Virus record (IMG/VR): IMGVR_UViG_3300022725_000180
Span: 1 to 31,075 of that record
Origin: a virus
Length of the DNA stretch: 31,075 nucleotides
Reading direction: 5' to 3' (one strand)
The notes under the pieces: model-generated
Database searches by the model: none
Seen by the model: only the letters and a program-made list of their open reading frames with translations
What the model was told of the DNA's origin: nothing
Translations under genes and position numbers: made by a program
Shown here: positions 3,349 to 27,054 of the stretch, one piece after another
Position numbering within the stretch: the first letter of the stretch is position 1
How the letters are laid out: each line of letters opens with the position of its first letter

Positions 3349-3660
3349 TTACAGGTTTTTCGGCCGGGTGTGCAGCAGGGTCCCGTCGAGCAGGTTAAAC
3401 TCGCGGACGATCTGCTCGGCCCAGATGTCGTTGTCGAGCTGGTCGGAGAAGAGGCCCGCGTCCGTGGACACGGTCACGAAGCGTTCGTGGACGTCGTACT
3501 GCATAGCCTGCAGCAGCTTCCCCGCGGCGTAGGCGCCGGTCTCGGTCAGCGGAAACGTCGCGACCTTCCCGCGCGCGTCACCGAAGATGAACAGGCCGAA
3601 GCGAGGAGCGTCGCCGCTGTAGTAGCAGATGGCGGTGTGGAAGTGGGTCTTGGTCGGCAT
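3349..3660 (-). CDS. Unknown protein, 103 residues, first gene after an internal promoter
   Basis: Begins MPTKTHFHTAICYYSGDAP and contains a beta-rich N-terminal half (FGLFIFGDARGKVATF), a helix (GAYAAGKLLQAMQYDV) and an acidic C-terminal part. It is compact, soluble, and has no catalytic signature I can name. AGGAGG lies 6 bases before the ATG. The promoter at 3700-3728 is 40 bases upstream and faces this gene, so it can be expressed independently of the genes to its right. It would then co-transcribe with 2871-3314 and on to the DUF2800 nuclease. Confidence 0.75.
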   Translation of the reverse strand: MPTKTHFHTAICYYSGDAPRFGLFIFGDARGKVATFPLTETGAYAAGKLLQAMQYDVHERFVTVSTDAGLFSDQLDNDIWAEQIVREFNLLDGTLLHTRPKNL

Positions 3661-3693
3661 GGGAGCCCTCCTGAAAGAAAAAGTTAACGTCGT

Positions 3694-3728
3694 GGTACCT
3701 ACATACGCACACTAGGTACCTATATCAA
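3694..3728 (-). promoter_or_regulatory. Sigma70-type promoter with two GGTACC operator-like palindromes
   Basis: On the minus strand the -35 TTGATA (3723-3728) and -10 TATGTA (3700-3705) are separated by 17 bases. The spacer holds the perfect 10-bp palindrome TAGGTACCTA (3713-3722). A second GGTACC (3694-3699) overlaps the downstream side of the -10. The two palindromes are 21 bp apart, two helical turns on the same DNA face, as expected for a dimeric or tetrameric repressor. The ribbon-helix-helix protein at 6171-6341 is the likely ligand (inference). Confidence 0.7.
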
Positions 3729-3933
3729 CCCCCTCCTCGAGAATTTTTACCGCGTGGAGGTGCGGCTTGTAGTGGACGCCGTCCCTGCGGGTGATGGACC
3801 GGAAGTGCTGGAAAGCTCCTGCCCGGGCCGCCTCGACACTGGGGGCCGTGATTTCGTACCACACGTTGAAGGTGTAGATATGGGCGGGGTCGCTCTTCGG
3901 CAGCGCCTTTACGTTGATCAGGTAGCGGTTCAA
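3712..3933 (-). CDS. Unknown protein, 73 residues, TTG start
   Basis: I place the start at TTG (3931-3933). GGAGG lies 8 bases before it, and its TTGA overlaps the stop of the DUF7768-like gene, giving translational coupling; a longer frame has no ribosome-binding site. The product begins M(L)NRYLINVKALPKSDPA and continues TFNVWYEITAPSVEAARAG, then HFRSITRRDGVHYKPHLHAV. The alternating beta-alpha-beta pattern suggests a small single-domain fold. The stop codon lies inside the TAGGTACCTA palindrome of the next promoter. Function unknown. Confidence 0.68.
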   Translation of the reverse strand: MNRYLINVKALPKSDPAHIYTFNVWYEITAPSVEAARAGAFQHFRSITRRDGVHYKPHLHAVKILEEGVDIGT

Positions 3934-4268
3934 TCGAGTATCCTCCGGGTCTCGACGGGCAGGCCCCACTCATGGGCCACCCGCATGGCGTTCTCCATTC
4001 CGGCCGACACTCCGTAGTCGACGTAGACGACCATCTTGTAGGCGTGGGGGAGCCACGCGAGGCCGGCTGCGATCCCCATCTCGCGGTCCTCCGGTATGTC
4101 GTCGTCGAGCACCAGCGGCTGGGTGTACAGCAGGTGCGAGGCGATAGGCGCCTCCCCTCTCATCAGGCTGTCGCGCAGCGCGCGCCGGGCGTACCGGACG
4201 TTGCGTTTGATGTCCCCGGCGTAGGGGCTCTCGAGGATCACCGGCTTCATCAAATTCGGGCAGGGCAT
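3930..4268 (-). CDS. DUF7768-like protein (deoxyribosyltransferase-like fold)
   Basis: 112 residues from the ATG at 4268, chosen because GGAGG lies 8 bases upstream; the in-frame extension has no such site. The sequence MKPVILESPYAGDIKRNVRY, then RALRDSLMRGEAPIASHLLY, DREMGIAAGLAW and VVYVDYGVSAGM matches a family common in phages and now catalogued as DUF7768. The fold resembles nucleoside 2-deoxyribosyltransferase-like proteins: a strand with SPYAGD binding a nucleotide-like ligand, then helices. The activity of the family is not established. The gene lies directly downstream of the structured RNA element at 4282-4341 and is coupled to the 73-residue gene. Confidence 0.82.
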   Translation of the reverse strand: MPCPNLMKPVILESPYAGDIKRNVRYARRALRDSLMRGEAPIASHLLYTQPLVLDDDIPEDREMGIAAGLAWLPHAYKMVVYVDYGVSAGMENAMRVAHEWGLPVETRRILD

Positions 4269-4281
4269 ATCTCTTCCTCCG

Positions 4282-4341
4282 TTGTGGATCATGAAAGCCC
4301 CGGCGTGATCCACAAACCGCGCCGGGGCCGTTTGTGGATCA
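4282..4341 (-). promoter_or_regulatory. Structured intergenic RNA: pseudoknot or attenuator candidate
   Basis: In the leftward RNA, four segments follow one another: UGAUCCACAAA (4331-4341), GCCCCGGCG (4320-4328), UUUGUGGAUCA (4306-4316) and CGCCGGGGC (4297-4305). The first pairs perfectly with the third over 11 bp, and the second with the fourth over 9 bp, so the stems cross like an H-type pseudoknot. The G+C stem is followed by UUU. A second copy of UGAUCCACAA (4282-4291) ends one base before the GGAGG of the next gene and can pair with the third segment instead. The UGA that opens the first segment is the stop codon of the 309-residue gene. Confidence 0.65.
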
Positions 4342-5268
4342 GTTGCCGTACTCTACCCGGCCCCACTGTCCCTGCGCGAAGGTGATCATTTCGGGCATGC
4401 CCGGCCAGCCTCGACCCGCCATCGCCTCCCAGTCCACGTGGACGACCAGCGTCGAGCCCTCGAAGAGGGGCTCACCCACGGCGCTGAAGATGAGTACGCC
4501 GCGGCCGTCGTAGACGTTGACGTTCCTCATGGGCTCCTCCCCCTCGAAGGTGCCGGGGACCCACTGCGGGCGAGCGGGTTCGCCCACGTATGCCTCCGCC
4601 GCCTCCTCCTCTTTTTCGGTGGCGCCCACGTATGCCTCGAGCTTGTCGGCCACAGCGTCGAGCAGCGTCTCGATGCCCGGCATCTCGTACTCGTCGCCCA
4701 TCCGGTCTATGACCTCCTCGACACCCGAGCCGAACAGAGCCAGAAGCTCGTGTGCGGTAAGGGCGTCGTGATCGAGCTCGCCGTCGAGCAGCTTCGAGCC
4801 GTCCCCGAAGATGTTCTCCCGTATCGCCAGCGCCGCCAAGCCGATCCGCGAAAGGTTTCGCGGGCGCTCCCGCAGGGGTCCCGTCGCATTGAGCACCTCC
4901 GACAAGCTGGGCTCCTCGGCCGCAGCCCGCACCGCTTCCTCCGCGGCCTCCAGCCGCTCGAGCTTATCAGCCGCGGCCTCGATGAAGTCTTTCAGGGTCT
5001 CCTGCTGGGGAGGCGACGGCGCTCTCAGCAGGGTATCCGCGGCGACCGCGATCAGGCCAAGCAGCTCGCGGCACGAGAAGGCGTCGGTGTCGAGATCGCC
5101 GTCCATCAGGCGCCACGCGTCGGAGAAGATGTCGTCGCGGAGACGCCTTGTCGCGGCTTCGACGCGCGAGGGGTCCTCCTCCTCCCTCTCGCTCGCAGCG
5201 TGGAAGCCCGCGGCTCGGAGCGCCTCGTCGAACTTCAGCTCGAGCGTGTTCATGTTTGGGTATTTCAT
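4339..5268 (-). CDS. Acidic helical protein with an internal duplication, 309 residues
   Basis: Two related units are visible, at about 38-110 and 143-215. RDDIFSDAWRLMDGDLDTD with FSCRELLGLI corresponds to RENIFGDGSKLLDGELDHD with LTAHELLALF, and each ends in a helix of the type EAAADKLERLEA or DAVADKLEAYVG. The units are acidic and helical and have DGDLD/DGELD loops. The C-terminal 70 residues (from about 240) look beta-rich. No signal peptide or membrane span. The ribosome-binding site is AAGGAGGGAG, inside a 15-mer also found upstream of the lipoprotein gene at 8556. The stop codon forms the first stem of the downstream RNA element. Function unknown; the repeats could be protein-protein interaction units. 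Confidence 0.8.
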   Translation of the reverse strand: MKYPNMNTLELKFDEALRAAGFHAASEREEEDPSRVEAATRRLRDDIFSDAWRLMDGDLDTDAFSCRELLGLIAVAADTLLRAPSPPQQETLKDFIEAAADKLERLEAAEEAVRAAAEEPSLSEVLNATGPLRERPRNLSRIGLAALAIRENIFGDGSKLLDGELDHDALTAHELLALFGSGVEEVIDRMGDEYEMPGIETLLDAVADKLEAYVGATEKEEEAAEAYVGEPARPQWVPGTFEGEEPMRNVNVYDGRGVLIFSAVGEPLFEGSTLVVHVDWEAMAGRGWPGMPEMITFAQGQWGRVEYGN

Positions 5269-5279
5269 GGCTCCCTCCT

Positions 5280-5777
5280 TCAGGGTTGTTCGTCTTCAAT
5301 CCACTCCGCGATGACTTCGCGGAGCATCTGTTCGGCGTCCTTGCGGTCGCCACGGCGGAGCATATCATGCGCCCAGCGTACGCGGCTGCGATGCGGGGCC
5401 GTGACAGGCTCGTCGTTCTCAGTGTCCAAGGGACGACCAGCCGCGTGCCCGCCTGTCGCCGGCAGGGCTTGACCCGGACCTCCTCCAGCACGCGCACCTT
5501 CATCGGCGGCCCGTTGAGTGGTCTGTCCCGGAGAGCTACTCCGGTTTTCCCCTTGATCAGAGGGGCGCGGCTGGTCGTCCGCTGGAGGCAGGCCCAGAGC
5601 ATCGGCGACCTCGTCGACAGCGTCGAAGAGCTCGTCCGTTATCTCCCGGGCCATCGCCTCGGTGTAATCGTAGTCGGCCTTGCGGCCGAGGTTCTTGAGC
5701 AGGCTGATAGCCTTGATCGCTTTCGGCAGCCGGGTGTCCCGGATGCGGTCGAATTTCTCGCGCTTGCTCTCGATCAT
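5280..5777 (-). CDS. Unknown protein, 165 residues
   Basis: The start at 5777 (MIESKREKFDRIRDTRLPKA) is preferred because its ATGA overlaps the stop of the 114-residue gene; the same frame is open further upstream only inside that gene. Residues 1-70 are helical and conserved-looking (AIKAISLLKNLGRKADYDYT, then REITDELFDAVDEVADALGL). Residues about 70-130 are a disordered Pro/Gly/Ser-rich linker, and a short helical C-terminus follows (WAHDMLRRGDRKDAEQMLRE). I recall the N-terminal part as a recurrent hypothetical domain in high-G+C phages but know no function. The stop overlaps the leader of the 309-residue gene. Confidence 0.75.
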   Translation of the reverse strand: MIESKREKFDRIRDTRLPKAIKAISLLKNLGRKADYDYTEAMAREITDELFDAVDEVADALGLPPADDQPRPSDQGENRSSSPGQTTQRAADEGARAGGGPGQALPATGGHAAGRPLDTENDEPVTAPHRSRVRWAHDMLRRGDRKDAEQMLREVIAEWIEDEQP

Positions 5778-6118: not shown

Positions 6119-6149
6119 GTGAGCCTCCTAGTTTGGGTGGGTGTAGGTA

Positions 6150-6181
6150 GGTACCTTACACCACCCCACCCTAGGATGCAA
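6150..6181 (-). promoter_or_regulatory. Weak sigma70-like promoter with GGTACC element
   Basis: On the minus strand, TTGCAT (6176-6181) and TAAGGT (6153-6158) are separated by 17 bases. The -10 is poor and overlaps the palindrome GGTACC (6150-6155; context TAAGGTACCTAC). A CCTAGG palindrome sits at 6170-6175 over the stop of the regulator gene. The arrangement suggests a repressible promoter for the 114-residue gene and those after it. Confidence 0.45.
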
Positions 6182-6341
6182 CCCCCTCTTCTTCACGCCG
6201 GCCCTCGACCTCGGGCTTCAGTACGTCGTAGACCAACGCGTTCATCGTCTCCGAGATGGTCGCGCCTGTCTGCGCCTTGTTCTCGTGCAGCAGGTCGTGC
6301 ATCTCTTCATCGACGAATATCTTGATCGCTTTCTTTGCCAT
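6171..6341 (-). CDS. Ribbon-helix-helix (Arc/MetJ-like) DNA-binding regulator, 56 residues
   Basis: The product is MAKKAIKIFVDEEMHDLLHE continuing NKAQTGATISETMNALVYDV and a short acidic-basic tail. Residues 4-10 form the antiparallel strand that enters the DNA groove in this family. Residues 11-24 are helix A, and 28-42 (ATISETMNALVYDV) are helix B after the turn. The length is typical of Arc-type dimers. AAGGAG lies 8 bases before the ATG. It is the first gene of the leftward operon, read from the divergent region at 6342-6422, so it is well placed to control its own promoter and the opposite one. The recurring GGTACC palindromes are candidate operators (inference). Confidence 0.83.
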   Translation of the reverse strand: MAKKAIKIFVDEEMHDLLHENKAQTGATISETMNALVYDVLKPEVEGRREEEGVAS

Positions 6342-6363
6342 AGCTTGGGCTCCTTTCTCCGAC

Positions 6364-6393
6364 AGAGTACCGCGATGTAGTACCTGCTTGCAA
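6364..6393 (-). promoter_or_regulatory. Candidate leftward promoter of the RHH gene, sharing a -35
   Basis: The -35 TTGCAA (6388-6393) is its own reverse complement. On the minus strand it is followed after 18 bases by TACTCT (6364-6369), which keeps only the key T, A and T of a -10. The start would be near 6357, giving a leader of about 15 bases containing AAGGAG. GTACC half-sites at 6367-6371 and 6380-6384 flank it. Confidence 0.45.
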
Positions 6394-6397
6394 GCAG
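6384..6397. promoter_or_regulatory. Perfect 14-bp palindrome at centre of divergent control region
   Basis: CTGCTTGCAAGCAG reads the same on both strands and contains the shared -35 element TTGCAA. It is flanked on each side by GTACC elements. It could be an operator or just a symmetric promoter core serving both directions. Confidence 0.7.
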
Positions 6398-6416
6398 ATC
6401 AGTGGTACCCTATACT
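6388..6416 (+). promoter_or_regulatory. Strong rightward sigma70-type promoter, apparently leaderless
   Basis: TTGCAA (6388-6393) and TATACT (6411-6416) are separated by exactly 17 bases, and GGTACC (6404-6409) abuts the -10. The expected start point, 7 bases past the -10, is base 6423, the A of the ATG of the VRR-NUC gene. No ribosome-binding site can fit between them, so the transcript should be leaderless or nearly so. Confidence 0.72.
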
Positions 6417-6422
6417 CCTACC

Positions 6423-6716
6423 ATGAGAGAGGCCCCCGTCGAAGACTATCTGCGCCGAGAGGTAAAGCGGCAGCTCCGCGGGATCGCGGTGAAGCTGAAC
6501 CCGTTCGGCGTCGTCGGCATCCCCGACCGGCTGGTGCTCGGGCCGGGCCGCCTCTTCACGTTCGTCGAGCTGAAGCGCCCCCGGGGAGGCGTGGTCAGCG
6601 GAAAGCAGGAGAGGTGGCACACCCGCCTCAGAGACTGGGGCTTCGAGGTAGAGGTCCTGAGCAGCAAGGAGGCAGTCGATGACTGGATCAAATCGAAGCG
6701 TCCGCTGGGTGATTGA
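6423..6716 (+). CDS. VRR-NUC domain nuclease
   Basis: 97 residues, a stand-alone VRR-NUC domain as is common in phages. It runs MREAPVEDYLRREVKRQLRG, VVGIPDRLVLGPGRLFTFVE, then LKRPRGG. D35 in GIPDR and E49/K51 in FVELKRP are the PD-(D/E)XK metal-binding residues, with Q62 further on. Members cut structured or branched DNA and often sit beside an SNF2-type helicase, as here. I use the ATG at 6423. An in-frame GTG at 6402 lies inside the promoter spacer and would not be transcribed from the -10 seen. First gene of the plus-strand operon; it overlaps the next gene by 38 bases. Confidence 0.9.
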   Translation: MREAPVEDYLRREVKRQLRGIAVKLNPFGVVGIPDRLVLGPGRLFTFVELKRPRGGVVSGKQERWHTRLRDWGFEVEVLSSKEAVDDWIKSKRPLGD

Positions 6717-7002
6717 GCACCGGCAGACGGGCGAGTGGCTCGGGACAAACACCCGGCTCACACATCTCGACGAGGCGGAGTTTGGCGCGCGGGTTCCGCT
6801 CCTCTTCCACGAGCTTCGCACGGCGAAACACACGTGGATACAGTACGGCTTGAGGCAAGAGTATTTCGAGGCCGGCGTGAGCTTGCGCAAGCCACTCGGG
6901 AACATCAAGCCGGGGGCGAACGCGTCGGCAAAGCCCCCGATCCTGTTCAAGCAGATCATGCTGGTCGACACCCTATTCTCAGTGTGGGACAGAGATGCGT
7001 AA
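6679..7002 (+). CDS. Unknown protein between nuclease and helicase, 107 residues
   Basis: Begins MTGSNRSVRWVIEHRQTGEW and ends QIMLVDTLFSVWDRDA. AAGGAGG lies 6 bases before the ATG, inside the 3' end of the VRR-NUC gene. The N-terminal part looks beta-rich (VRWVIEHRQTGEWLGTNTRL); the central part has helices and aromatic residues. No motif recognised. It overlaps both neighbours, so expression is coupled to the nuclease and the helicase and a role in the same DNA process is likely by context. Confidence 0.75.
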   Translation: MTGSNRSVRWVIEHRQTGEWLGTNTRLTHLDEAEFGARVPLLFHELRTAKHTWIQYGLRQEYFEAGVSLRKPLGNIKPGANASAKPPILFKQIMLVDTLFSVWDRDA

Positions 7003-8431
7003 TCGCTCGGACCTCCGCCCCGGACAGGAGCAGCTCGTCGACCTGTTCAAGGACTACCTCGCCGGCATCGCCGTGCTCGGCTGCGGCGGGGGCAAGACCG
7101 TGGCCTCGATGACCGCGATCCTCGACCTCGTGGAGGAGGGCGAGATCGACTACGCCATCGTGCTCGCGCCGCCGATGGTGGTCTCGACCGCGTGGCCCGC
7201 CGAGCCGTACCGCTGGCACCACCTGCACGGCCTCAACCTGATCACGCTCACCGGCACGCCGAAGCAGCGCGAGAAGAAGCTGACCACCGCCGAAGGCAAG
7301 GCGATCTTCACCTGCTCGATCGACAACGTGGTGTGGCTGCTCGACCGGCTGGAGGAGCTGGACTGGCCATACGACCGCACGATGCTGGTGATCGACGAGA
7401 TCACGAAGCTGAAGTCGCCGTCGTCGAAACGGCGCAAGCGCCTGCAGACTGATGCCGGCCGGTTCAACGCGGTCTGGGGTCTGACCGGCACGCCGCGGCC
7501 GAACGGGTACGAAGACCTCTTCGGCCCCATCAAGCTGGTCGGCGGGCAGGACGTGTGGGGCGTGCGTGACTTCGACACGTGGCGCGAGACCTACTTCATT
7601 AAGCAGGACTACCACGGCTACGTGTACAAGCCGAACGAGATGCTGGTCGACCGTCTCGACAAGGTCGCCCGCAAGTATATGTTCGTCCTCCCCGACGGTG
7701 ACCTCGAGACGCCCGAGGTGCTCGAGGGCGAGAGCTTCGACCGGTGGGTCGGGCTCGGCGATGAGCAGCGCGAGGCCTACGACGAGATGGTCGAGGAGAT
7801 GCTCGTCGATCTGAGGGCCGAGTACGGCGACCTCCCCGACGAGCAGCTCGCGGAGCTCGTCATCGAGGCGATGTCGCAGGGCGTGGTCAGCGGCAAGCTG
7901 ACGCAGATCGTGCAGGGCTTCATGTACGTGGGCGACGAGGACGACCGCAGCGCGCATCACTTCCCGGCGAACCCGAAGATGACCGCGCTGCAGGAGCTGC
8001 TCGAGGAGATCGGCGGCGACCACGTGGCCATCGCCTACCATTACAAGGAGGAGCTCGAAGCTCTGCGCAAGGTGCTCGGCAAGAACACCCCGGCGCTGGG
8101 CGCGGAGACCAGCTCGAAGCAGGCCGCCGACATCGTCGACCGCTGGAGCCGGGGAGAGATCGACCGCCTGCTGGTGCACCCCGCGAGCATGGGGCACGGC
8201 GTTGACGGTTTACAATTCGGCGGGCATCATCTAATATGGTACCACCCGTCGTGGAGCGCGGAGATGACCTACCAGACCATCAAACGCTTCCAGCGGCCGG
8301 GTCAGGCCCACCCCGTCAGAAACTGGCGGATACTGGCTGACGATACGAACGACGAGATCAAGGACGCGCGCGTGCACAACAAGCTGATGGAGGCCGCCGC
8401 GTTCCTTTCAAAGTTACCCCGAGCGGGGTAG
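6995..8431 (+). CDS. SNF2-type superfamily 2 helicase/translocase
   Basis: 478 residues, the usual length for phage SNF2-like ATPases. Motifs in order: Walker A as LGCGGGKT (about 28-35), Walker B VIDEITKLK (D134, E135), motif III GLTGTP (162-167), motif V HPASMGHGVDGLQFGG and motif VI KRFQRPGQ (430-437, arginine fingers). It should use ATP to translocate on or remodel DNA in replication or recombination, with the VRR-NUC nuclease as likely partner. It overlaps the previous gene by 8 bases. The stop codon lies in a small hairpin (8415-8430). Confidence 0.93.
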   Translation: MRNRSDLRPGQEQLVDLFKDYLAGIAVLGCGGGKTVASMTAILDLVEEGEIDYAIVLAPPMVVSTAWPAEPYRWHHLHGLNLITLTGTPKQREKKLTTAEGKAIFTCSIDNVVWLLDRLEELDWPYDRTMLVIDEITKLKSPSSKRRKRLQTDAGRFNAVWGLTGTPRPNGYEDLFGPIKLVGGQDVWGVRDFDTWRETYFIKQDYHGYVYKPNEMLVDRLDKVARKYMFVLPDGDLETPEVLEGESFDRWVGLGDEQREAYDEMVEEMLVDLRAEYGDLPDEQLAELVIEAMSQGVVSGKLTQIVQGFMYVGDEDDRSAHHFPANPKMTALQELLEEIGGDHVAIAYHYKEELEALRKVLGKNTPALGAETSSKQAADIVDRWSRGEIDRLLVHPASMGHGVDGLQFGGHHLIWYHPSWSAEMTYQTIKRFQRPGQAHPVRNWRILADDTNDEIKDARVHNKLMEAAAFLSKLPRAG

Positions 8432-16656: not shown

Positions 16657-19600
16657 CTACCTCCCGAGTATCATCGCGAGGGGAGACGGCTCTTCGCCGG
16701 TCACCCCCGCCCCCTCGAAGAGACGCCAGATAGCGGTTGAAGGTATGCCCGGCACAAGGAGGCCAGACAGGTCAATAAGGGACCGGGCATCGGAAGCTGT
16801 AGCCTCGCCAAGTAGAACGTCACTGCCGGAACTGAGGCCTCGCGCGACGGTCTCGGAAATGCCCCCGTACGCGCCGCCCCCGCTGAAGCCTTGCACCGCG
16901 CTCGATGCATCGCGTACGAACGGGAAGACGGAGGCGACGGAAAGGGCGGTCTCTTGCAGCAGGAACTGGCCCCAGTTTTCCTCGTCCTCATCGTCATCCC
17001 CCATTCCCGGTAGCGACATCTTGATCGCATTGTACAGCACAGCCTCGACGGTGAACAGCAGGATCATGTCGGTCGCGCCCTTGAGCACCGCGTACAGCGT
17101 GTTCTTGTTCGGGTCGCGGAAGTCCCGCTGGGTCCGGCCGATCACCTCCTCGGCGACGTTGTACTTGGCGAACATGTACGACCCCAGCGCCGTGAAGAGG
17201 CGCAGGAACTCGTTCTGTCGCTGGGTCTGCCCCAGCGTGCCGCGCTCGATGGCGGAGCGGTCCGCGTAGAGGCCGGACGCCTGCGCCCGGGCGACCATCC
17301 GGTCGGCGTGCTGGGCCGCCTCCATGTCGTCCATCCCCTGCGCCAGCCCTTGGTGGTGGGCGCCCAGCCACGTGGGCATGTCGACGGCGTAGTACTGCAC
17401 CTTCTGCATGGCCCAGAAGCCCGCCTTCATGATCACCCGCAGGGCCTCGTCGGCGGTCCCCCGAATGGGGTCGAACTGCGTGCTGTTTATCAGGTCGAAG
17501 ACGTCCCGCTGGAACGAGGTCTCGCGCTCGCGCATGAACGGCGACCGCTGCTTGACGTCGTTCCCCATGCGGATGCGGCCGCGGGCGGAGAACAGGTACG
17601 TGCTCAGGCCGCGGACCATGTTCCCGGTCCCGATGGTCGCCATCGACTGGGTCAGGCCGGTGAACTGGATGGCGACGGTCGACATGTTGAAGGCGAGCTT
17701 CGACAGGGTGAACCCGCTCTTCAGCCGGCGCATCGTGCCGGCCAGCACGTGCGTGCCGCTGGCCGGGCCGGCAGCCACGTCCTGCAGCCACCACTCGAGC
17801 GCCTCGTAGTCCTCGAGCATGCCGTGCTGCTCGAACAGCCCGCGGACCTCGGGCTCCCGCAGGATCGACCACGACGTGTTGACGGCCTCGCCATAGGCGA
17901 GATCGTGGACCACGTTGTTGACGTGCCCGAAGAGCACGTCCATGCCCAGCTGCAGCGTGCGGCCCCCTCCGCCGGCCGCGCGCTCCTTCGTGTGGCCGTT
18001 CTTGGTCTGAGCCTTGCCGAAGCGCCCGGCCAGCATGTTCTGCATGAGGTCGAGGTTCTCGTCAGCCCGGGCCGTGTCGGTCATCCGGCGGTCGTACTTG
18101 ATGGGGTAGTAGCCGCCGCGGATGCCCTGCCGCGGCATGCCGGGCAGCTGCATCATCAGCTGGGGCTCGACCTTCTCCGGCGCCACGCCCGTGACGCGCT
18201 CCTCGCGCTCCGCGATCATGGGCCAGAAGGTGTCGATGTAGTCCCACGTGGCCTGCACGAAGCGCCAGTCGCGCTCGTCGAGGTTCGACAGGAGCGTCTG
18301 CACCTGCTCCTTGGTGAAGGACCCCCGGCTGTCGCGCGAGGTCAGGCGCTCGAAGTTGTCCTTGTTGCCCACGTTCAGCGCCATGCTGATGAGGTCCCAC
18401 TTCGACATCGCCTCGTCCGAGCCCTCCCAGACCTGCCGGGTGGTCATGCCGCGGCGCTCGCTCTGCGAGTACATGGAGAACAGGTTGTCGAGGTCCTCGG
18501 TCGCCTGCTCGCGCATCTGCATGGCGATGACACTGGCCCGGTCGATGCGGTCCTTGATATGCCGGATCGCCGCACCGCGGTTCGTCCAGCCGTCGATCTT
18601 CCGCAGCACCGTGTCCGCATTGCGGACCAGATTGAAGTAGCCCTTGATGTTGGACATCGTGCGCTCGCCGCGGGTCGGCACCCGGTTGAGGGGTTTGTTC
18701 CTCACATTCTCGTCGAAGGCCTCGCGTATCTCCTCGATCACCTCGCCGCGCTCGCGCGCCTCCTGCGCGTCGATCACCTTCTTCTTCCGGCGAGCCATGT
18801 GCTCGATGTTCTTCAGGCTGTCGAAGACGCCCTGCAGGCGCTGGACGCTGAGCGTCTTGTACGGCTTGCGCTGCGCGTTGGACAGCACGTGGTCCGGGAT
18901 CGCGAGCTCGTTGTCGCGGCCCTCCTGTTTCATCGCGTCGACATAGGCGAGCAGGCGCTCGCGGCGGGCCTCCGCCTTGCCGCTCATCTGGCGGAAGTCG
19001 TAGGTCTCGAGGATGTCGTCGATGGCGCCCAGATACTCCGGGGCGAGGTTCTGCCGCGTGCCCTTCCGCTTGAGCCGGCCAGCGAGGCGCTCGGCCTTGC
19101 CCACCATCTCGGCGGTGTTCTTGCTGGCGATGTAGAGCTGGTGCTGGATCAGCTGCTTCCGCTTCGCCTCGAAGGCCTCGTCGACCCGCCCCTCGGCGAG
19201 GTGGCGCGCGGCCTCCTCCGACAGGCGGCGCTCGGCCGCCTGATAGCGGCTGGTTTGGATCGCCTCCCGGACCGGCATCTTCTGGATGAGGTCCTCCGCG
19301 ATCTGCTTGGCGGCCTGCCGGGAGGTGGGCTTCTTGCTGCGCGAGCCCACGCGGTTGAGAGCGCGCAGCTCGGCCACGATGACCTGCCCGCGCTTCTCGC
19401 CGTGCATCGCGTCCGAGACCACGCTCTCCAGCTCCTCGGGGTCCGCCATAGGATCGCCGACCTCCTCGGCCACGCGCTGCTTGATGGCGCGGCGTATGGC
19501 GTCCCGCGGCCGCGGCGCGTCGATCACGTCCTTGAGCATCTCGGCCCCGGAGTTGTAGCCGAACCAGCCGGCGACCTCGTCGGCCGTCATCCCGCTCCCC

Positions 19601-22600
19601 TTCACGTGCATCGGCCGGCGCCCGCGCGGCAGCCGGCTGGCGACGTCGGGGAACTGCTCGCCGTACTGCTCCTCCAGCAGGTCGGTGTCGAGCCGCAAGT
19701 CGAGAGGCAGGTCAGGCTCCTGCTCCTCGGCGCCGAGCCAGCGGCCGTACGCCAGCCACTGGATCACGCGGTTGTGGCGCTCGCCGTTGACCCGTTCGGT
19801 CTCTTCCTTCTCGATCTCCGCCCGGCGCGCTGCGTACTCGGCGCTGCGCATCTGCTTCTCCACGCGGAGCAGCTCCTTGCGTGCCAGCTGCCGCCCCTCA
19901 TCGCGGGCCTCCTCCGACAGGACGGTGAGCCGGCGGTAGCTGTCCTCGTCGAGGCCGAGCTCGCGCGCCGTCTCCGCAATCTGACTGTTGATCGCGTCGC
20001 GGTCTTGGATGCCGGCGATCTCCTCGTCAGTCGCGACCAGCCGGTCGAAGACGTCGCGGATCGAGGGGTCGAGGTTGACGTTCAGGTTGCGGATGTCCTT
20101 GTACCACCCGACGAGCCACGCGGTGAAGCTCTCGAACAGGGCGCGCATGGTGTTGCTCGGGCTCTTGCCCTCGTACACGTACGCCTCCCAGCCCCGGGCG
20201 AACTGCTCGTGCATGGCCCGGTGGATCGCGGCGTCGACCTGCCCGTTGCCGGTCGTGCCTATCGTCAGATACTCTTCCACCTGCGCCTGCTCGATCGGGG
20301 TCTCCTTCGACGCCTCGGTGGCGATGGCCTCCGAGTTGCGGGTGAACCAGCGGGTGGTCTCCTCGAGCTGCTGCTGGGCGAACTCGAGCCCGTCACGCGC
20401 CTGCCTCTGCAGGTTCCACAGGAAGAAGTGCCCCGTCTCGTGGAGCATCGTGGTCTCGTTGGCGCTGTCAAACAGCTGGATGATCGCCTGCCCGGACAGG
20501 TCCTTCGGCAGGATGATCGAGCCTCGGGGGCCGCTCTTGCGCTCGCGCTGCTGCGCGAGGATGTCGACGTTGTTCGGGTCCCAGTTGCCGCCGTTGAAGG
20601 CAGACTTCACGCTCCCGGGCCGGAAGGCAATGTAGCTCGTGCTGCCGTAGTCCTCGACGACGTTCGTGTATATGACGCCGTCGATCCCGCTTGCCTCGAG
20701 CACGGAGATGATCTCCTCGAGCCGTCCCGCCAGCATCCCGGTCAGCTCTTCGAAGCTGAAGTCCGTGTCCTCCTGCGCGAGATCGCGGAAGCCGCGGCGC
20801 ACGTCGTTCAGAAGGAGCTCAATGGAGTGCATGCTCTTGAACATGACAACGCCGTCCTCGTCAACGAACGCCTGCCCGGCAAGCTCCCGCACCTCGTCTA
20901 TGACAGACCACATCGGGTCCCCCGGGCCTGACGTATCATCCGCCAGTGTGTTTGTAAGCTGGTTCAGCATGTCGGCCGTGGTCGACCAAGCGCCGCCGAC
21001 CCGGAGCCCCTCCTCACCCACGTCGATCGGGTTCTGGAGGCTAAGGTACGCCGGGATCGTGCGCGCGCCGGAGGGGTCCTGCTCCCGGAGAGGCGGGAAG
21101 TGCTCCCTCGCGCTGAGCCGCTGCCGGGCTGCGGCCGTGGTGCCGAAATGAGACAGCGGGAAGAAGCCTTCGAAATCCGCAAACGTGGAGTGGAAGACCA
21201 TCTTGGGCGAGCCGTCTTCGTTCGTGATCTCGCTGTCGGCGAACCACCGGTTGAAATCGCCGGACCGGGTCCAGCTGGCCTCGTTGTCCAGCGTCACCTC
21301 GTCGGGCTCGACATCGACGAACAGCGCCGCCGCGTCGCCGAGCGGGGCGAGGTTCTTATCGCCGCCGCCGGTGTTGAAGAAGCCCTTGTAGCCGGCTTCG
21401 GCGATGAGCTCCTCGTACCGGGCGGTGGCTTGGGTGCTGCTCTTGTGCACCGTGCGGTCGATCTTCTCGCGGAGGTTCTCCGGGTCGACGTGCCACGGGT
21501 ACAGGTCCTGCGGATCGACGCGGACCTCGTGCCGCCAGAGGCCAAGCCCGAACTCCCGCTTGTACCCGTACGGCTTGCCGATGTGCAGGCCGAAGAAGGT
21601 CTTCTTCGGGCCGGCGCGCCGGCGCTCCTCGCCGCGGACTGGCCCGGTTCCGGCGAAGGCCGGGTCAAGATTGTCACGGGCCTCGCTCGACCAGTGGGTC
21701 AGCACGATCTTGCCGTCCTTCAGCTCGGCCCCGAAGTACGTGCCCGGGGCCGACCCGTCGGCCGGGGGCGGGAACTGGAGGTTCAGCGAGAACGCCGGGC
21801 GGCGCTCTCCGTTGGCGTCGCGGCCGAACGGTACGCTGTGATTGATCTGGGTCTCGGCCTCCTTGCCGAAGAAGACGCCGTCGAACGGCACCGGCGGCCG
21901 CCCGCTTGCGTCGGTGTACACGAGGCCGTCCTTGGTCAGGATGCTCTCTTGGCCCCAGACCGCGGCGAGGCCCCGGATGTATGTATCGGACGCGCCCACT
22001 ACGAGGAAGGAGGTGCCGTCCGGCGTGCCGTCGTACATCCCCTTCATCTCGATGAAGTCGAGGCCGGCCTCGGTGAGCTGGCGCTCAAGCTCGGCCGCCC
22101 GGGCGCGGTTGCCCGGCGACTGCCCGGCCCCCTCGCTGTCGACCGTCGCGGAGAGCGCGGCCCACCCGTCACGCTTGAAGCTCTCTTCGGAGAGGTTGGC
22201 CGCGTCGAAGTCCGACAGCTCGGCCGGGCGGTCGTCCGCCATCTGGAAGAACTCGTCACTCTCGATCTCAGGGCTGTTGACCACCCGCGGCGTCTCGACG
22301 GTCGAGAACCGGCTATGCAGCGACGGCAGCTGCTCGAGGAACTGGTTCAGCTTCTCTTGGCTGTCGGTGCCGACGTAGCCCTTGAAGTTGCCGCTGTCCC
22401 AGACCTGCACGACGTGTTGGAAGTTGGCGGTCATCACCCGCTCGAGCTCGGTCTGCGAGACCTGCAGCGCGGTCATGCCCTCGACGGCGTCCTCGCCGGT
22501 CTGGAGCACCTCGGCGCGCTTGGCGGCCAGCTCCTCTTGGGAGAAGAACTGCGCCTTGAACTCGTCCTTCTGGGCCTCGTTGGCGTTGAACTGCTCGGCC

Positions 22601-25600
22601 GGACCGCCGACCTTCTCGGCCGTGTAGAACAGGCCGTCCTCGGTCATCAGCTCCTTGACCCGGGCGATCTGCGCGGAGCGCCCCTTGTCGATGAACTGGA
22701 AGACCATCTGCTCGACCACGACGTCGAACTGCTGACCCTGCGGGTCGAAGCCTTTCATCTCCGTGCCGTCGTCCTCGGTCCAGAGCGTGACGCCCTCGTT
22801 CTCGGCGTCGCTGAAGGCGGACAGGTCGAAGGTCACGCGCTCCGTCTGGGGCGCCTCCTCGAACGTCTTCTGCATCTCGACGTTCGGGTCCATCGAGACG
22901 CCCTCCGCCTCCGGCCCGGAGAGGTCGATCAGCGCCTTGACGGCCGACCCTTCCGACCCGCCGACGCGCAGGAACTTGCCGTCGCCGAGCACCTGCGCGA
23001 GCGCGTACCCGACCGCGTCCTGCATCTCCGAGTAGCCCGGGATCGACGCCTTGATGTGGTCGTCGAAGTTGCCGCCGTACTTCTCGCGCAGCTCGGTGTA
23101 GGCGAGCACAGGCTCCGGCAGGTCGATGACCGGCACGTAGTTGGTGAGGTCCGCCTGCTGGCGCTTGCCGCTGGTGACGTCGCCGAAGAAGTCGGTGAAG
23201 CCCCGGCCGTCACCTTGCAGCTCGGTGCCGCTCACGACATCGTCGCGGACATCAGACTGCTCCGGCTCCGGTGTTTGCTGCTGGAAGAACTCGTTCGAGC
23301 GGCGCTCGAGCTCGATGGCCCGGACCGCCGCCTCCTCGTACGAAAAGTCGCCGCTGTCCTTCGCACCCATGTCGGCGTAGAGACGCTTCTCGTAGTACCA
23401 GATCATCGCCTGAATGTCGGCGATGGTGTACTCCTGCCCGGTGCGCCGCTGGACCTCCGCCTGCGCGGCCTCGGCGACCTTGATCATGAACGCCCGGTCC
23501 GACGGCCCCTCGGGGGCCTCGGCGAGCTTCAGGAAGATGTCCTTGTACAGCGTGTTCGCCGCGGCCTCGGCCTCGGTGCCGTCCTTGAACTTCTTGTCCA
23601 TGTACCGCTGGGCGTACTCGGTGATGTAGTTGAGCGCCTGCTTGTCGGTCAGGTCAGGCCGGCCGATCATGTGCTTGAAGCGGGCCACGCCCTTCGGCAC
23701 CCACTCGCCCTTCTCCTTCTTCCACTCGTCGCCCTTCAGGCCGACGATCCGCGGCAGCACGTCGCCGCGGTAGCGGTTGATCGTGCGGGTCCACCAGAGG
23801 TCCATCGTCAGGTAGCCAGACTGGCCGGACAGGTTCGCGTAGAACGCGCCGAGCTTCGGCCCGAAGACGGCGGACGCACGCGGCACGCGCATGTCCGTCG
23901 GGACCTTGCTCATCGTCGGCAGGCCGAGCTCCTTGAGCCCCTTGTTAGCCTCCTTGACCGTGGTCTCCTCGAGCAGGAACGCGGTCGCGTCCATGACGTT
24001 GCCGTACTCGTCGACGATCTGCCGGAAGCGGGTCAGCGAGTTTTCCGTGTGCCGGGCGCGATCGTTCATGCCCAGCGTCCCCAGCGTGAGGCGGCCGGTC
24101 ATGCGGAAATTCTGGTAGACCTTCGTGGCGTTCTTGAAGTTGTCCAGCACCTTCGTGCCGTTCGAGGTCAGCGCGATGATGACGGTCATCACCGCCCGGG
24201 CCTCCTCCGACGTAGAGATGTCCAGCTCCCGGAGGCCGATCAGCGACGGGTTGACGTTGTCGCCCTTGAACTCCGGGAAGATGTCCGCCATCAGGTCGAG
24301 CGCGGTCTGGAACTTGTGCGTGTACCAGCCCACCGCGGCCGCGTCGGGCGACTGCAGCTCGAACTCGATCTCGTCGGCCATCCAGTTGGCCATCTTCTCG
24401 ATGGTCTTCGGCCCCCGGGTCTTGCGGTTGATCTTGCCGTACTTCTTGCGCTGGCGCGCCTGCAGCTTCAGCGCCACGTCGCGGACGAGGTTCTTCTCAT
24501 CCGGGTTGATGCCCCAGTCTCGAGGGTCCTCCTCGCCGACACGCAGCGTCGCGGTCTGCTCGAAGACCTCTTCGTCGCTGCGGCTCATGTTCGGATCACT
24601 CGGCAGCGCCCGCTCCTCGACCGGCAGCTGGCCGCGGAGCTCGCCCCGGGCGTCCAGCTCGCGGGCCGCTTCGATCACGTCCTCGACGGTGACCTGCGGC
24701 ATGGCCAACCCCTTCTCGTCCAGCAGGTCGCGGATCGCGGCCACGTCGGGCACGTCGGTGACAGAGGCGTCCTCGCTGGTGATGAGCTCCAGCGCCAGCT
24801 GCGGGTCGATCATCGGGCGGGCCGGCGCCGGGCCGACCGTGTCCGCATTGCGCACCGCCGGCAGGCTGTACCGAGTGACGTACTCGTCGATCGAGAGGCC
24901 GGCACGCTCGGCACCGACCTGCGCAGACCGGACAAGAAGTGCGGCCTCCTTGTCAGCCATCGTCGGCGCCCGGCCGGACTGAACCAGCTCGCTGCGGACC
25001 CGCTCATACTCGGTAGCCAGCTTGCCGCGGAGATCACCCACGGCGGTGGTCACCCGGTCGACGCCTTGCGACAGCTCGTCGGTCGTCGCCTGCAGATCGT
25101 CGAGGAACTGCTCGGCGTCAGCTTGCGACAGGTCATCAGGCTTCAGGCGGATGTGCTTGGACAGCTTCGGGTCGACGGTGGAGCCCGCGATCCGGGACGC
25201 GTACACGCCCATCGGGATCACGAAGTCGCTGCCGCTGTCGCGGGCTTGGTTGAACTCCATGATGTCCAGCTCGGGGGTGGCCTCGAAGAACTCCTCGAGG
25301 GTCATGTCCCCGTCTTGGAACATCTCCTCCATGCGCTCGGGGTCGACGTAGATGTTCTCCATCGGGCCGTCTTTGGTGACCGTGTCGATCGCCTTGGCGA
25401 ACGCCTTCCTGTCGCGCTTCTTCAGCTCGCTGGCTTCGATCTTACCGCCGAGGATATTGAACATCTTCTGCCGGGCTTCGGTCTCGCGCGCCTTGCGGAC
25501 CTTGGTGCGGACGTGGCCGCCGGCCATAGCGGTCACCTCGAGAGGTGCGGTGATCGTCTCGGCCATCGCCTCGAGAAGCACCTCGGTCCAGTTGATCTCC

Positions 25601-27054
25601 TCGCCGGCGGCCAGCCGGCCGAAGAGCTCACCCGCGCCACCGGCCGTGCCTTGCGCGAAGAGCTGCAGGACCATGTTGCCGACCGGGCTCTGGGACAGCG
25701 CCTTGCCGGCGACCCCCATGCTGAGCCCGTCGAAGACCCCGACCACGGCGCCGTAGCGGAAAGACTTGTCGCGGAGGCGATCGTAGAACTGCGGGTCGTC
25801 GAGCAGCTTCTGGACGCCTTCGGGAGACGACAGGTCGATGCCGGCGTCAGCCACAAACTCGTTGAACGCCAGACCCTGAGACAGCTCGAAGCTGGCAAGG
25901 CCCGACGTGGCGGCGGCCAGCGCCGGGTTGCGGGTGGTGGCCATGACGGTGGCCGCGGCCACGAAGTTCAGGCCGCTCTCCGCGCCGATCTCCATGAGGA
26001 ACTGGCCGAAGCGAACGGGGTTGTTGACCGCCACGTTGGCGAGGTTGGCGACGCTCTCCATCGGCCCCCCGCCCTCGGACGCCGCGAGCTGTTGCTCGAT
26101 CTCCCGGCGCCAGCGCGCCTTCGGCCAGAGCACGTTACGCTCCAGCTCCTCCCGACCCCGGTCGACGAGGATGTCGGCCTCGGCCTGCGCGAAGTCCTGT
26201 GCCTCCGCCTCGGCCTCCTCGGCGGCGGTGAATGGCCGGCTCATCCGGCTGTTGAGGAAGCGCCACAGCCCTTTCGCATCCGACGACAGCTCCTGCACGA
26301 AGGTTGGCTCCTCGCCGCCATCCTCGGTGCGCACGCCCGCGCCTTCCTCCAGCTGAGTGCCGAGCGCGTTGGCTCGCCGCTGGGCGTCCTGAGCCTCCTC
26401 GAGACGCCCCTGCTCAACGAAGCTGAGCGCCTCCTTCTGGAGCTCCTCCATCTGCTTCTGCAGCGGCGACTGGTCTTCCGCGACCTCTTCGGCCGTGCGC
26501 GGCGCCGCCCCCTGCTGCTCGGCCTCGTCCGCCTGTATCTCCTCCAGCGTGGACGCTCGATCCTCGAGCAGCTCCTTCATCCGCCGGGCGCCGCCCGCAG
26601 CGGTCTTCGCGGTGAAGTTGTCGAACATGGCGTCCGTCTGCCGGGAGAAGGCGTTGCCCGCGCTCTCGAAAAAGCCCAGCGTCTCGAGGTCGTCGACCGC
26701 GAGGGACAGGTCGTCCTGCTCGACAGCCCACTGCGCGATGCGCTGGTTGACCGCGAAGAACTCCTTGTCCCGGCGGCGCTGGACATCCAGCTCGAGGCCC
26801 TTGAGCAGCTCCTCGTCCATCGGCGCCCGGCGGGGGCCAAGGCGGGACAGCTGCGGCGTCTCCTCGATAACGCGGCGCTCACGCGCGAAGCGGTTGGGGT
26901 CGCTCTGACGTGCGACCTCTGCACGCCGGGCGGCCTGCTCGGCAATAGCCTTGCGACGCTCTTCGAGCCTGCCGAGAACGCGTTCCTGCAGCCGATCCTT
27001 GCGGAAGTCGGTAAGCGGTGAGATGGGGCTGAAGCCGGAGTTTATATCTGCCAT
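16657..27054 (-). CDS. Giant polyvalent virion (ejection) protein, 3465 residues, in the T7 gp16 position
   Basis: Lies between the gp15-like and tail-fibre genes, where T7 encodes gp16 (1318 residues). Approximate modules: 1-350 helical; 358-510 hydrophobic segments; 850-1130 DUF7178-like (IIALTSNGTKVLDN, LTMDLWWTRT); 1340-1490 methyltransferase-like Rossmann fold (LRVGGSEGSAVKAL, then SMDPN with D1389, FDVVVEQM); 1700-1925 ART-like (VLTHWSSEARDNLDPAF); 1930-2165 ADP-ribosyltransferase of the polyvalent type (MVFHST with H1955, GSTSYIAFRPGSVKSAF); 2170-2420 zincin (H2205-E-T-G-H2209); 2420-3090 long helices; 3100-3465 membrane-prone end resembling LPD38. The module names come from families described in phage/plasmid polyvalent proteins. 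Delivery into the host with DNA is inferred. The frame is intact; GAAAGG lies 11 bases before the ATG. Confidence 0.88.
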   Translation of the reverse strand: MADINSGFSPISPLTDFRKDRLQERVLGRLEERRKAIAEQAARRAEVARQSDPNRFARERRVIEETPQLSRLGPRRAPMDEELLKGLELDVQRRRDKEFFAVNQRIAQWAVEQDDLSLAVDDLETLGFFESAGNAFSRQTDAMFDNFTAKTAAGGARRMKELLEDRASTLEEIQADEAEQQGAAPRTAEEVAEDQSPLQKQMEELQKEALSFVEQGRLEEAQDAQRRANALGTQLEEGAGVRTEDGGEEPTFVQELSSDAKGLWRFLNSRMSRPFTAAEEAEAEAQDFAQAEADILVDRGREELERNVLWPKARWRREIEQQLAASEGGGPMESVANLANVAVNNPVRFGQFLMEIGAESGLNFVAAATVMATTRNPALAAATSGLASFELSQGLAFNEFVADAGIDLSSPEGVQKLLDDPQFYDRLRDKSFRYGAVVGVFDGLSMGVAGKALSQSPVGNMVLQLFAQGTAGGAGELFGRLAAGEEINWTEVLLEAMAETITAPLEVTAMAGGHVRTKVRKARETEARQKMFNILGGKIEASELKKRDRKAFAKAIDTVTKDGPMENIYVDPERMEEMFQDGDMTLEEFFEATPELDIMEFNQARDSGSDFVIPMGVYASRIAGSTVDPKLSKHIRLKPDDLSQADAEQFLDDLQATTDELSQGVDRVTTAVGDLRGKLATEYERVRSELVQSGRAPTMADKEAALLVRSAQVGAERAGLSIDEYVTRYSLPAVRNADTVGPAPARPMIDPQLALELITSEDASVTDVPDVAAIRDLLDEKGLAMPQVTVEDVIEAARELDARGELRGQLPVEERALPSDPNMSRSDEEVFEQTATLRVGEEDPRDWGINPDEKNLVRDVALKLQARQRKKYGKINRKTRGPKTIEKMANWMADEIEFELQSPDAAAVGWYTHKFQTALDLMADIFPEFKGDNVNPSLIGLRELDISTSEEARAVMTVIIALTSNGTKVLDNFKNATKVYQNFRMTGRLTLGTLGMNDRARHTENSLTRFRQIVDEYGNVMDATAFLLEETTVKEANKGLKELGLPTMSKVPTDMRVPRASAVFGPKLGAFYANLSGQSGYLTMDLWWTRTINRYRGDVLPRIVGLKGDEWKKEKGEWVPKGVARFKHMIGRPDLTDKQALNYITEYAQRYMDKKFKDGTEAEAAANTLYKDIFLKLAEAPEGPSDRAFMIKVAEAAQAEVQRRTGQEYTIADIQAMIWYYEKRLYADMGAKDSGDFSYEEAAVRAIELERRSNEFFQQQTPEPEQSDVRDDVVSGTELQGDGRGFTDFFGDVTSGKRQQADLTNYVPVIDLPEPVLAYTELREKYGGNFDDHIKASIPGYSEMQDAVGYALAQVLGDGKFLRVGGSEGSAVKALIDLSGPEAEGVSMDPNVEMQKTFEEAPQTERVTFDLSAFSDAENEGVTLWTEDDGTEMKGFDPQGQQFDVVVEQMVFQFIDKGRSAQIARVKELMTEDGLFYTAEKVGGPAEQFNANEAQKDEFKAQFFSQEELAAKRAEVLQTGEDAVEGMTALQVSQTELERVMTANFQHVVQVWDSGNFKGYVGTDSQEKLNQFLEQLPSLHSRFSTVETPRVVNSPEIESDEFFQMADDRPAELSDFDAANLSEESFKRDGWAALSATVDSEGAGQSPGNRARAAELERQLTEAGLDFIEMKGMYDGTPDGTSFLVVGASDTYIRGLAAVWGQESILTKDGLVYTDASGRPPVPFDGVFFGKEAETQINHSVPFGRDANGERRPAFSLNLQFPPPADGSAPGTYFGAELKDGKIVLTHWSSEARDNLDPAFAGTGPVRGEERRRAGPKKTFFGLHIGKPYGYKREFGLGLWRHEVRVDPQDLYPWHVDPENLREKIDRTVHKSSTQATARYEELIAEAGYKGFFNTGGGDKNLAPLGDAAALFVDVEPDEVTLDNEASWTRSGDFNRWFADSEITNEDGSPKMVFHSTFADFEGFFPLSHFGTTAAARQRLSAREHFPPLREQDPSGARTIPAYLSLQNPIDVGEEGLRVGGAWSTTADMLNQLTNTLADDTSGPGDPMWSVIDEVRELAGQAFVDEDGVVMFKSMHSIELLLNDVRRGFRDLAQEDTDFSFEELTGMLAGRLEEIISVLEASGIDGVIYTNVVEDYGSTSYIAFRPGSVKSAFNGGNWDPNNVDILAQQRERKSGPRGSIILPKDLSGQAIIQLFDSANETTMLHETGHFFLWNLQRQARDGLEFAQQQLEETTRWFTRNSEAIATEASKETPIEQAQVEEYLTIGTTGNGQVDAAIHRAMHEQFARGWEAYVYEGKSPSNTMRALFESFTAWLVGWYKDIRNLNVNLDPSIRDVFDRLVATDEEIAGIQDRDAINSQIAETARELGLDEDSYRRLTVLSEEARDEGRQLARKELLRVEKQMRSAEYAARRAEIEKEETERVNGERHNRVIQWLAYGRWLGAEEQEPDLPLDLRLDTDLLEEQYGEQFPDVASRLPRGRRPMHVKGSGMTADEVAGWFGYNSGAEMLKDVIDAPRPRDAIRRAIKQRVAEEVGDPMADPEELESVVSDAMHGEKRGQVIVAELRALNRVGSRSKKPTSRQAAKQIAEDLIQKMPVREAIQTSRYQAAERRLSEEAARHLAEGRVDEAFEAKRKQLIQHQLYIASKNTAEMVGKAERLAGRLKRKGTRQNLAPEYLGAIDDILETYDFRQMSGKAEARRERLLAYVDAMKQEGRDNELAIPDHVLSNAQRKPYKTLSVQRLQGVFDSLKNIEHMARRKKKVIDAQEARERGEVIEEIREAFDENVRNKPLNRVPTRGERTMSNIKGYFNLVRNADTVLRKIDGWTNRGAAIRHIKDRIDRASVIAMQMREQATEDLDNLFSMYSQSERRGMTTRQVWEGSDEAMSKWDLISMALNVGNKDNFERLTSRDSRGSFTKEQVQTLLSNLDERDWRFVQATWDYIDTFWPMIAEREERVTGVAPEKVEPQLMMQLPGMPRQGIRGGYYPIKYDRRMTDTARADENLDLMQNMLAGRFGKAQTKNGHTKERAAGGGGRTLQLGMDVLFGHVNNVVHDLAYGEAVNTSWSILREPEVRGLFEQHGMLEDYEALEWWLQDVAAGPASGTHVLAGTMRRLKSGFTLSKLAFNMSTVAIQFTGLTQSMATIGTGNMVRGLSTYLFSARGRIRMGNDVKQRSPFMRERETSFQRDVFDLINSTQFDPIRGTADEALRVIMKAGFWAMQKVQYYAVDMPTWLGAHHQGLAQGMDDMEAAQHADRMVARAQASGLYADRSAIERGTLGQTQRQNEFLRLFTALGSYMFAKYNVAEEVIGRTQRDFRDPNKNTLYAVLKGATDMILLFTVEAVLYNAIKMSLPGMGDDDEDEENWGQFLLQETALSVASVFPFVRDASSAVQGFSGGGAYGGISETVARGLSSGSDVLLGEATASDARSLIDLSGLLVPGIPSTAIWRLFEGAGVTGEEPSPLAMILGR

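Follow-up and report, generated by a model that had tools for sequence, protein, structure and literature searches.

The window analysed here is the whole of record IMGVR_UViG_3300022725_000180, i.e. 31,075 bases of DNA (approximately 65% G+C) from an uncultured tailed phage, possibly a fragment. It encodes podovirus-type proteins, namely a T7 gp14-like internal virion protein, tail fibre proteins, an endolysin and a DUF2800/PD-(D/E)XK exonuclease. A third of the record is occupied by a single minus-strand ORF of 3465 aa (16657-27054), which is flanked by tail fibre and endolysin-like virion genes. In addition, a VRR-NUC nuclease and an SNF2-type helicase are encoded at 6402-8431 on the plus strand, opposite in direction to their neighbours; in phage L142, the region matching this stretch directly adjoins the exonuclease.

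The element under study lies in a 70-base gap between two genes. Most of the genes near this gap have the minus strand as their coding strand, which is therefore the one on which the element has to be read. The gene upstream encodes a protein of 309 aa that has no Pfam or PHROG match and no relative among viral contigs, genome contigs or phages. The assignment of the downstream gene to DUF7768 is clear (PF24963, E 2e-31; PHROG 355, nucleoside 2-deoxyribosyltransferase, E 1e-24). GC3 is coding-like for both genes, at 0.86-0.89 (0.86 for the 309-aa gene). The genes and the features of the gap are the following:

4339-5268, minus strand: upstream gene, an ORF of 309 aa, whose TGA stop codon forms the first 3 nt of arm A1
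4341-4330, minus strand: arm A1, TGATCCACAAAC (also given as UGAUCCACAAAC), 12 nt, the perfect complement of 4306-4317
4328-4320, minus strand: arm B, GCCCCGGCG, 9 nt, the perfect complement of 4297-4305
4317-4306, minus strand: arm A', GTTTGTGGATCA (also given as GUUUGUGGAUCA), 12 nt, the complement of A1
4305-4297, minus strand: arm B', CGCCGGGGC, followed by UUUC (to 4293), a terminator-like 3' side
4291-4282, minus strand: arm A2, TGATCCACAA (also given as UGAUCCACAA), 10 nt, the third copy of the A motif
4276-4280, minus strand: Shine-Dalgarno sequence GGAGG, 7 nt before the ATG at 4268
3930-4268, minus strand: DUF7768 gene (nucleoside 2-deoxyribosyltransferase-like), 112 aa, with its ATG at 4268

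In the minus-strand RNA, the gap thus reads A1-B-A'-B'-UUUC-A2-C-GGAGG-AUG, with a single G between A1 and B, CG between B and A', nothing between A' and B', and a C between A2 and GGAGG. All of the stems that these arms can form are perfect: 12 bp for A1:A', 9 bp for B:B' (10 bp if one G-U pair is counted) and 10 bp for A':A2. A' has three options, i.e. pairing with A1, pairing with A2, or staying unpaired inside the B:B' loop. The initial annotation, made from the sequence, had described interleaved perfect stems of 11 and 9 bp; the interleaving and the 9-bp stem are as it stated, while the first stem has 12 bp. Its further observations hold as well: the first arm begins with the stop codon of the upstream gene (the TGA of ORF 5268-4339 being the first three bases of A1), a second copy of that arm (A2, 10 nt) lies one base, a C, from the Shine-Dalgarno sequence, and the G+C stem ends in UUU, B' being followed by UUUC. 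All nine pairs of B:B' are G-C, as in the GC-rich hairpin of an intrinsic terminator. As full stems, A1:A' and B:B' are mutually exclusive and both are predicted to be stable, which is the layout of an attenuator. What is supported, then, is the anatomy: the stems interleave and exclude each other, one of them contains a stop codon and another forms a terminator-like hairpin.

Such complementarity had been called unlikely by chance, and the shuffling results agree. When the 111-nt region was dinucleotide-shuffled 3000 times, no shuffle reached the observed 21 crossing pairs (the best had 15). The whole window was shuffled 1492 times, and 7 of these shuffles contained an equally large crossing at some position. 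Among 1.1 Mb of other viral DNA, a single crossing passes the same threshold, and it is more loosely arranged. The arrangement is thus genuine and out of the ordinary, but not extremely improbable: for a scan of 31 kb, the surprise is approximately 1 in 200.

Searches of viral contigs, phages and plasmids by protein, DNA similarity and pattern turned up no gap homologous to this one. At the 80 best DUF7768 loci (58-67% identity) the upstream DNA is unrelated; none of them carries the element, and the 4 that have any crossing of at least 7 bp have none comparable. The nearest phage found by way of the exonuclease is L142 (46%); tblastn against 13.3 kb of it matched neither the DUF7768 gene nor the genes immediately beside it. 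Searched as a DNA pattern, the identical palindrome had no matches; a looser version had 26, every one in an unrelated context, and a pattern of A2 plus the Shine-Dalgarno sequence had 7, none with the upstream arm. A blastn search of the gap against phages and plasmids returned chance-level matches only. The absence of the element from all 80 relatives fits a mutational scar, in which a short gap (TGATCCACAACGGAGG...ATG) gained approximately 49 bp flanked by duplicated TGATCCACAA, the inverted copy being the product of template switching and the whole having no selected function. A1 and A2 are indeed direct repeats that bracket the remainder, and removing one A-repeat unit leaves a compact junction of stop codon and Shine-Dalgarno sequence. 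However, the order A B A' B' is not produced by template switching in one step, and the searches revealed no relative whose gap is empty; we regard this origin as quite improbable.

The hairpin B:B' by itself has many counterparts. The pattern GCCCCGGCG-N10-16-CGCCGGGGCTTT is present in 52 viral-contig stretches, compared to 6 for a scrambled control of matched composition (made from the same letters by reversing the second arm). The loops within the 52 stretches vary widely and several recur in related contigs, which is the behaviour expected of intrinsic terminators. The tail that follows B:B' here, UUUCAUGAUC, has 3 consecutive U and a total of 5 U in 10 bases. Among the tails of similar viral hairpins, of which 46 are distinct, this count ranks low (the others have 4-9), so that at most a weak terminator is expected. 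A simple terminator scan did not list B:B', whose 14-nt loop exceeds the limit of that scan. Rfam covariance models run on 3600-5300 identified no family; there was one chance-level match elsewhere (mir-187, E 0.23).

These data bear on the simplest reading of the gap, that of an ordinary GC-rich intergenic hairpin, B:B', acting as a weak terminator or as a stabiliser of the mRNA end, in which the A arms are of little consequence and regulation does not involve ribosomes. That B...B'TTT is common in viruses with many unrelated loops fits this reading, and the crossing is dispensable for such a role, given that no loop among the 52 other stretches matches its flank over more than 7 nt. Yet a plain hairpin leaves both the perfect 12-bp A1:A' stem and the third copy, A2, unexplained, and so weak a U tract is ill suited to a strong terminator. 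We consider this reading somewhat doubtful.

Energetically, the two main stems are close competitors that become available at different times. A1:A' has a predicted energy of -21.7 kcal/mol at 36 nt of RNA, once A' is complete, and can form before B:B'; the latter, with its loop, is more stable, at -26.2 kcal/mol, and becomes available at 48 nt, once B' is made. At equilibrium, B:B' dominates in the isolated element of 48-76 nt (P 0.98-1.0), whereas A1:A' belongs to the minimum-energy fold when the flanks are longer. This flip indicates that the two states are close and that the equilibrium preference depends on context. Along a nested, pseudoknot-free path from A1:A' to B:B', the predicted barrier is approximately 25 kcal/mol, an overestimate since pseudoknotted intermediates are ignored and real paths are cheaper; on the time scale of transcription, A1:A' would probably still be a kinetic trap. 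When the first 12-16 nt are masked, the sole substantial predicted fold is B:B'.

The folding predictions do not support one proposal of the initial annotation, i.e. that a ribosome masking A1 frees the middle arm to pair near the ribosome-binding site. The predicted probability of A':A2 pairing is approximately 1e-8 or less with A1 masked or not; with A1 masked it is negligible because the freed sequence goes to B:B'. Sequestration of the ribosome-binding site through A':A2 is thus ruled out on energy. The pseudoknot that had also been suggested fares differently in its two forms. Like H-type pseudoknots, the gap has two interleaved perfect stems, here in the order A1 B A' B', but the loops are too short for full stems (1, 2 and 0 nt for stems of 9 and 12 bp) and only trimmed stems fit. 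The loop over the 9-bp stem is one base, and the contiguity of A' and B' means that a 0-nt loop would have to span the 12-bp stem, which is sterically implausible; on these loop lengths the full H-type form is ruled out. A trimmed pseudoknot of 6+9 bp seems possible: a rough calculation, for which loop limits were assumed and a penalty of 7-9 kcal/mol was charged, gives it -25.8 to -27.8 kcal/mol, much the same as for B:B' on its own.

The repeats could also act at the level of DNA. TGATCCACAA(A)C is present three times, in one orientation at two of the sites and inverted at the one between them, with a spacing of 24-25 bp centre to centre, and these copies might form an operator bound by a phage or host repressor. 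The three exact 10-bp copies of TGATCCACAA are confined to this gap, and positions 6341-6171 encode a candidate ribbon-helix-helix protein (weak Pfam matches: Omega_Repress, E 0.014; ParG, E 0.11). Against this, the window has no good copies of TGATCCACAA elsewhere (the next best have 2 mismatches), the gaps flanking the candidate regulator gene carry another palindrome, GGTACC, no sigma-70-like promoter was found in the gap, and an operator leaves B:B' unexplained. ESAS elements of Cluster K mycobacteriophages are many per genome and nearly always come with a 13-bp SAS (PMC3203893). The present element shares with ESAS a position ahead of a translation start and inverted repeats separated by a short spacer, but it is single and no SAS is seen in the gap. 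Several copies per genome, the habit of operator and ESAS-like repeats, are not present in this 31-kb and possibly fragmentary record. Overall, we judge a DNA operator unlikely. TGATCCACA may also bear some resemblance to the DnaA box TTATCCACA.

Separately from the gap, the window contains seven GGTACC palindromes. Four of them (3694, 3715, 6150 and 6404) fall in three minus-strand gaps before genes (3661-3730, 6119-6170 and 6342-6425), often inside AGGTACCTA; the palindrome is a candidate operator or promoter element of this phage. The putative regulator, a 56-aa minus-strand ORF at 6171-6341 (MAKKAIKIFVDEEMHDLLHENKAQTGATISETMNALVYDV...), is ribbon-helix-helix-like on sub-threshold matches, and could bind the GGTACC sites.

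Taken together, the gap holds a real and unusual RNA-capable arrangement, which is most likely a weak intergenic attenuator or terminator. In the form that we put forward tentatively, as possible though short of probable, it would be a weak intergenic attenuator in which B:B'-UUUC, separating the 309-aa gene from the DUF7768 gene, acts as a partial intrinsic terminator and competes with A1:A', an antiterminator-like hairpin that would form earlier, exclude B:B' and overlap the stop codon with its 5' arm. With no ribosome near, A1:A' would fold once A' is transcribed and kinetically block B:B', and polymerase would read through. If a ribosome stood at the UGA, its footprint (approximately 10 nt past the A site) would coincide closely with A1 and stop A1:A' from forming, leaving B:B' free to form. 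A tightly coupled ribosome would be only 10 nt from B, and B:B' itself may then be hindered. In sum, the position of the ribosome would set the downstream dose; since the effects of the ribosome on A1:A' and on B:B' oppose each other, this translational control could act in either direction.

The distances involved make ribosome control of the gap plausible. A ribosome protects approximately 10 nt past the A site, and in E. coli, terminators located 8-9 bp after a stop codon are almost fully repressed by translating ribosomes, those at 17-18 bp give values of 0.12-0.8 depending on sequence, and those at more than 30 bp are fully active (PMC4824070). As B begins 10 nt past the stop codon, the hairpin would lie in the range where translation matters, provided that E. 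coli distances apply; the footprint and polymerase speed of the host may differ. Like intrinsic terminators just past a stop codon (e.g. lambda tR2 in the constructs of Li et al., PMC4824070), the gap has a GC-rich hairpin and U residues a few nucleotides past the stop, in the ribosome-sensitive range, but here a second perfect hairpin containing the stop codon competes and the U tract is weak.

The mutually exclusive hairpins, between which ribosome position would select, liken the proposed attenuator to a further class of elements. In attenuators of the trp and pyrBI type, exclusive hairpins are selected by the position of the ribosome. The pyrBI case is mentioned in PMC4824070. Unlike these, the gap is preceded by a full 309-aa gene as its translated unit, and not by a leader peptide (a short ORF with regulatory codons), and no sensing codons are identified. 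A more elaborate version, in which the gap is a three-way RNA switch, with the stop codon of a full-length gene placed within the antiterminator arm, finishing ribosomes deciding if polymerase reaches the next gene and a trimmed pseudoknot possibly formed en route, seems to us very doubtful.

If the arms have no such part, the gap would be an ordinary weak terminator with a curious loop. If the attenuator is real, it would be a compact phage device that ties the dose of one gene to the translation of the preceding gene, with neither a leader peptide nor a protein, and it would offer a clean system in which to study how a ribosome positioned on a stop codon chooses between overlapping hairpins.
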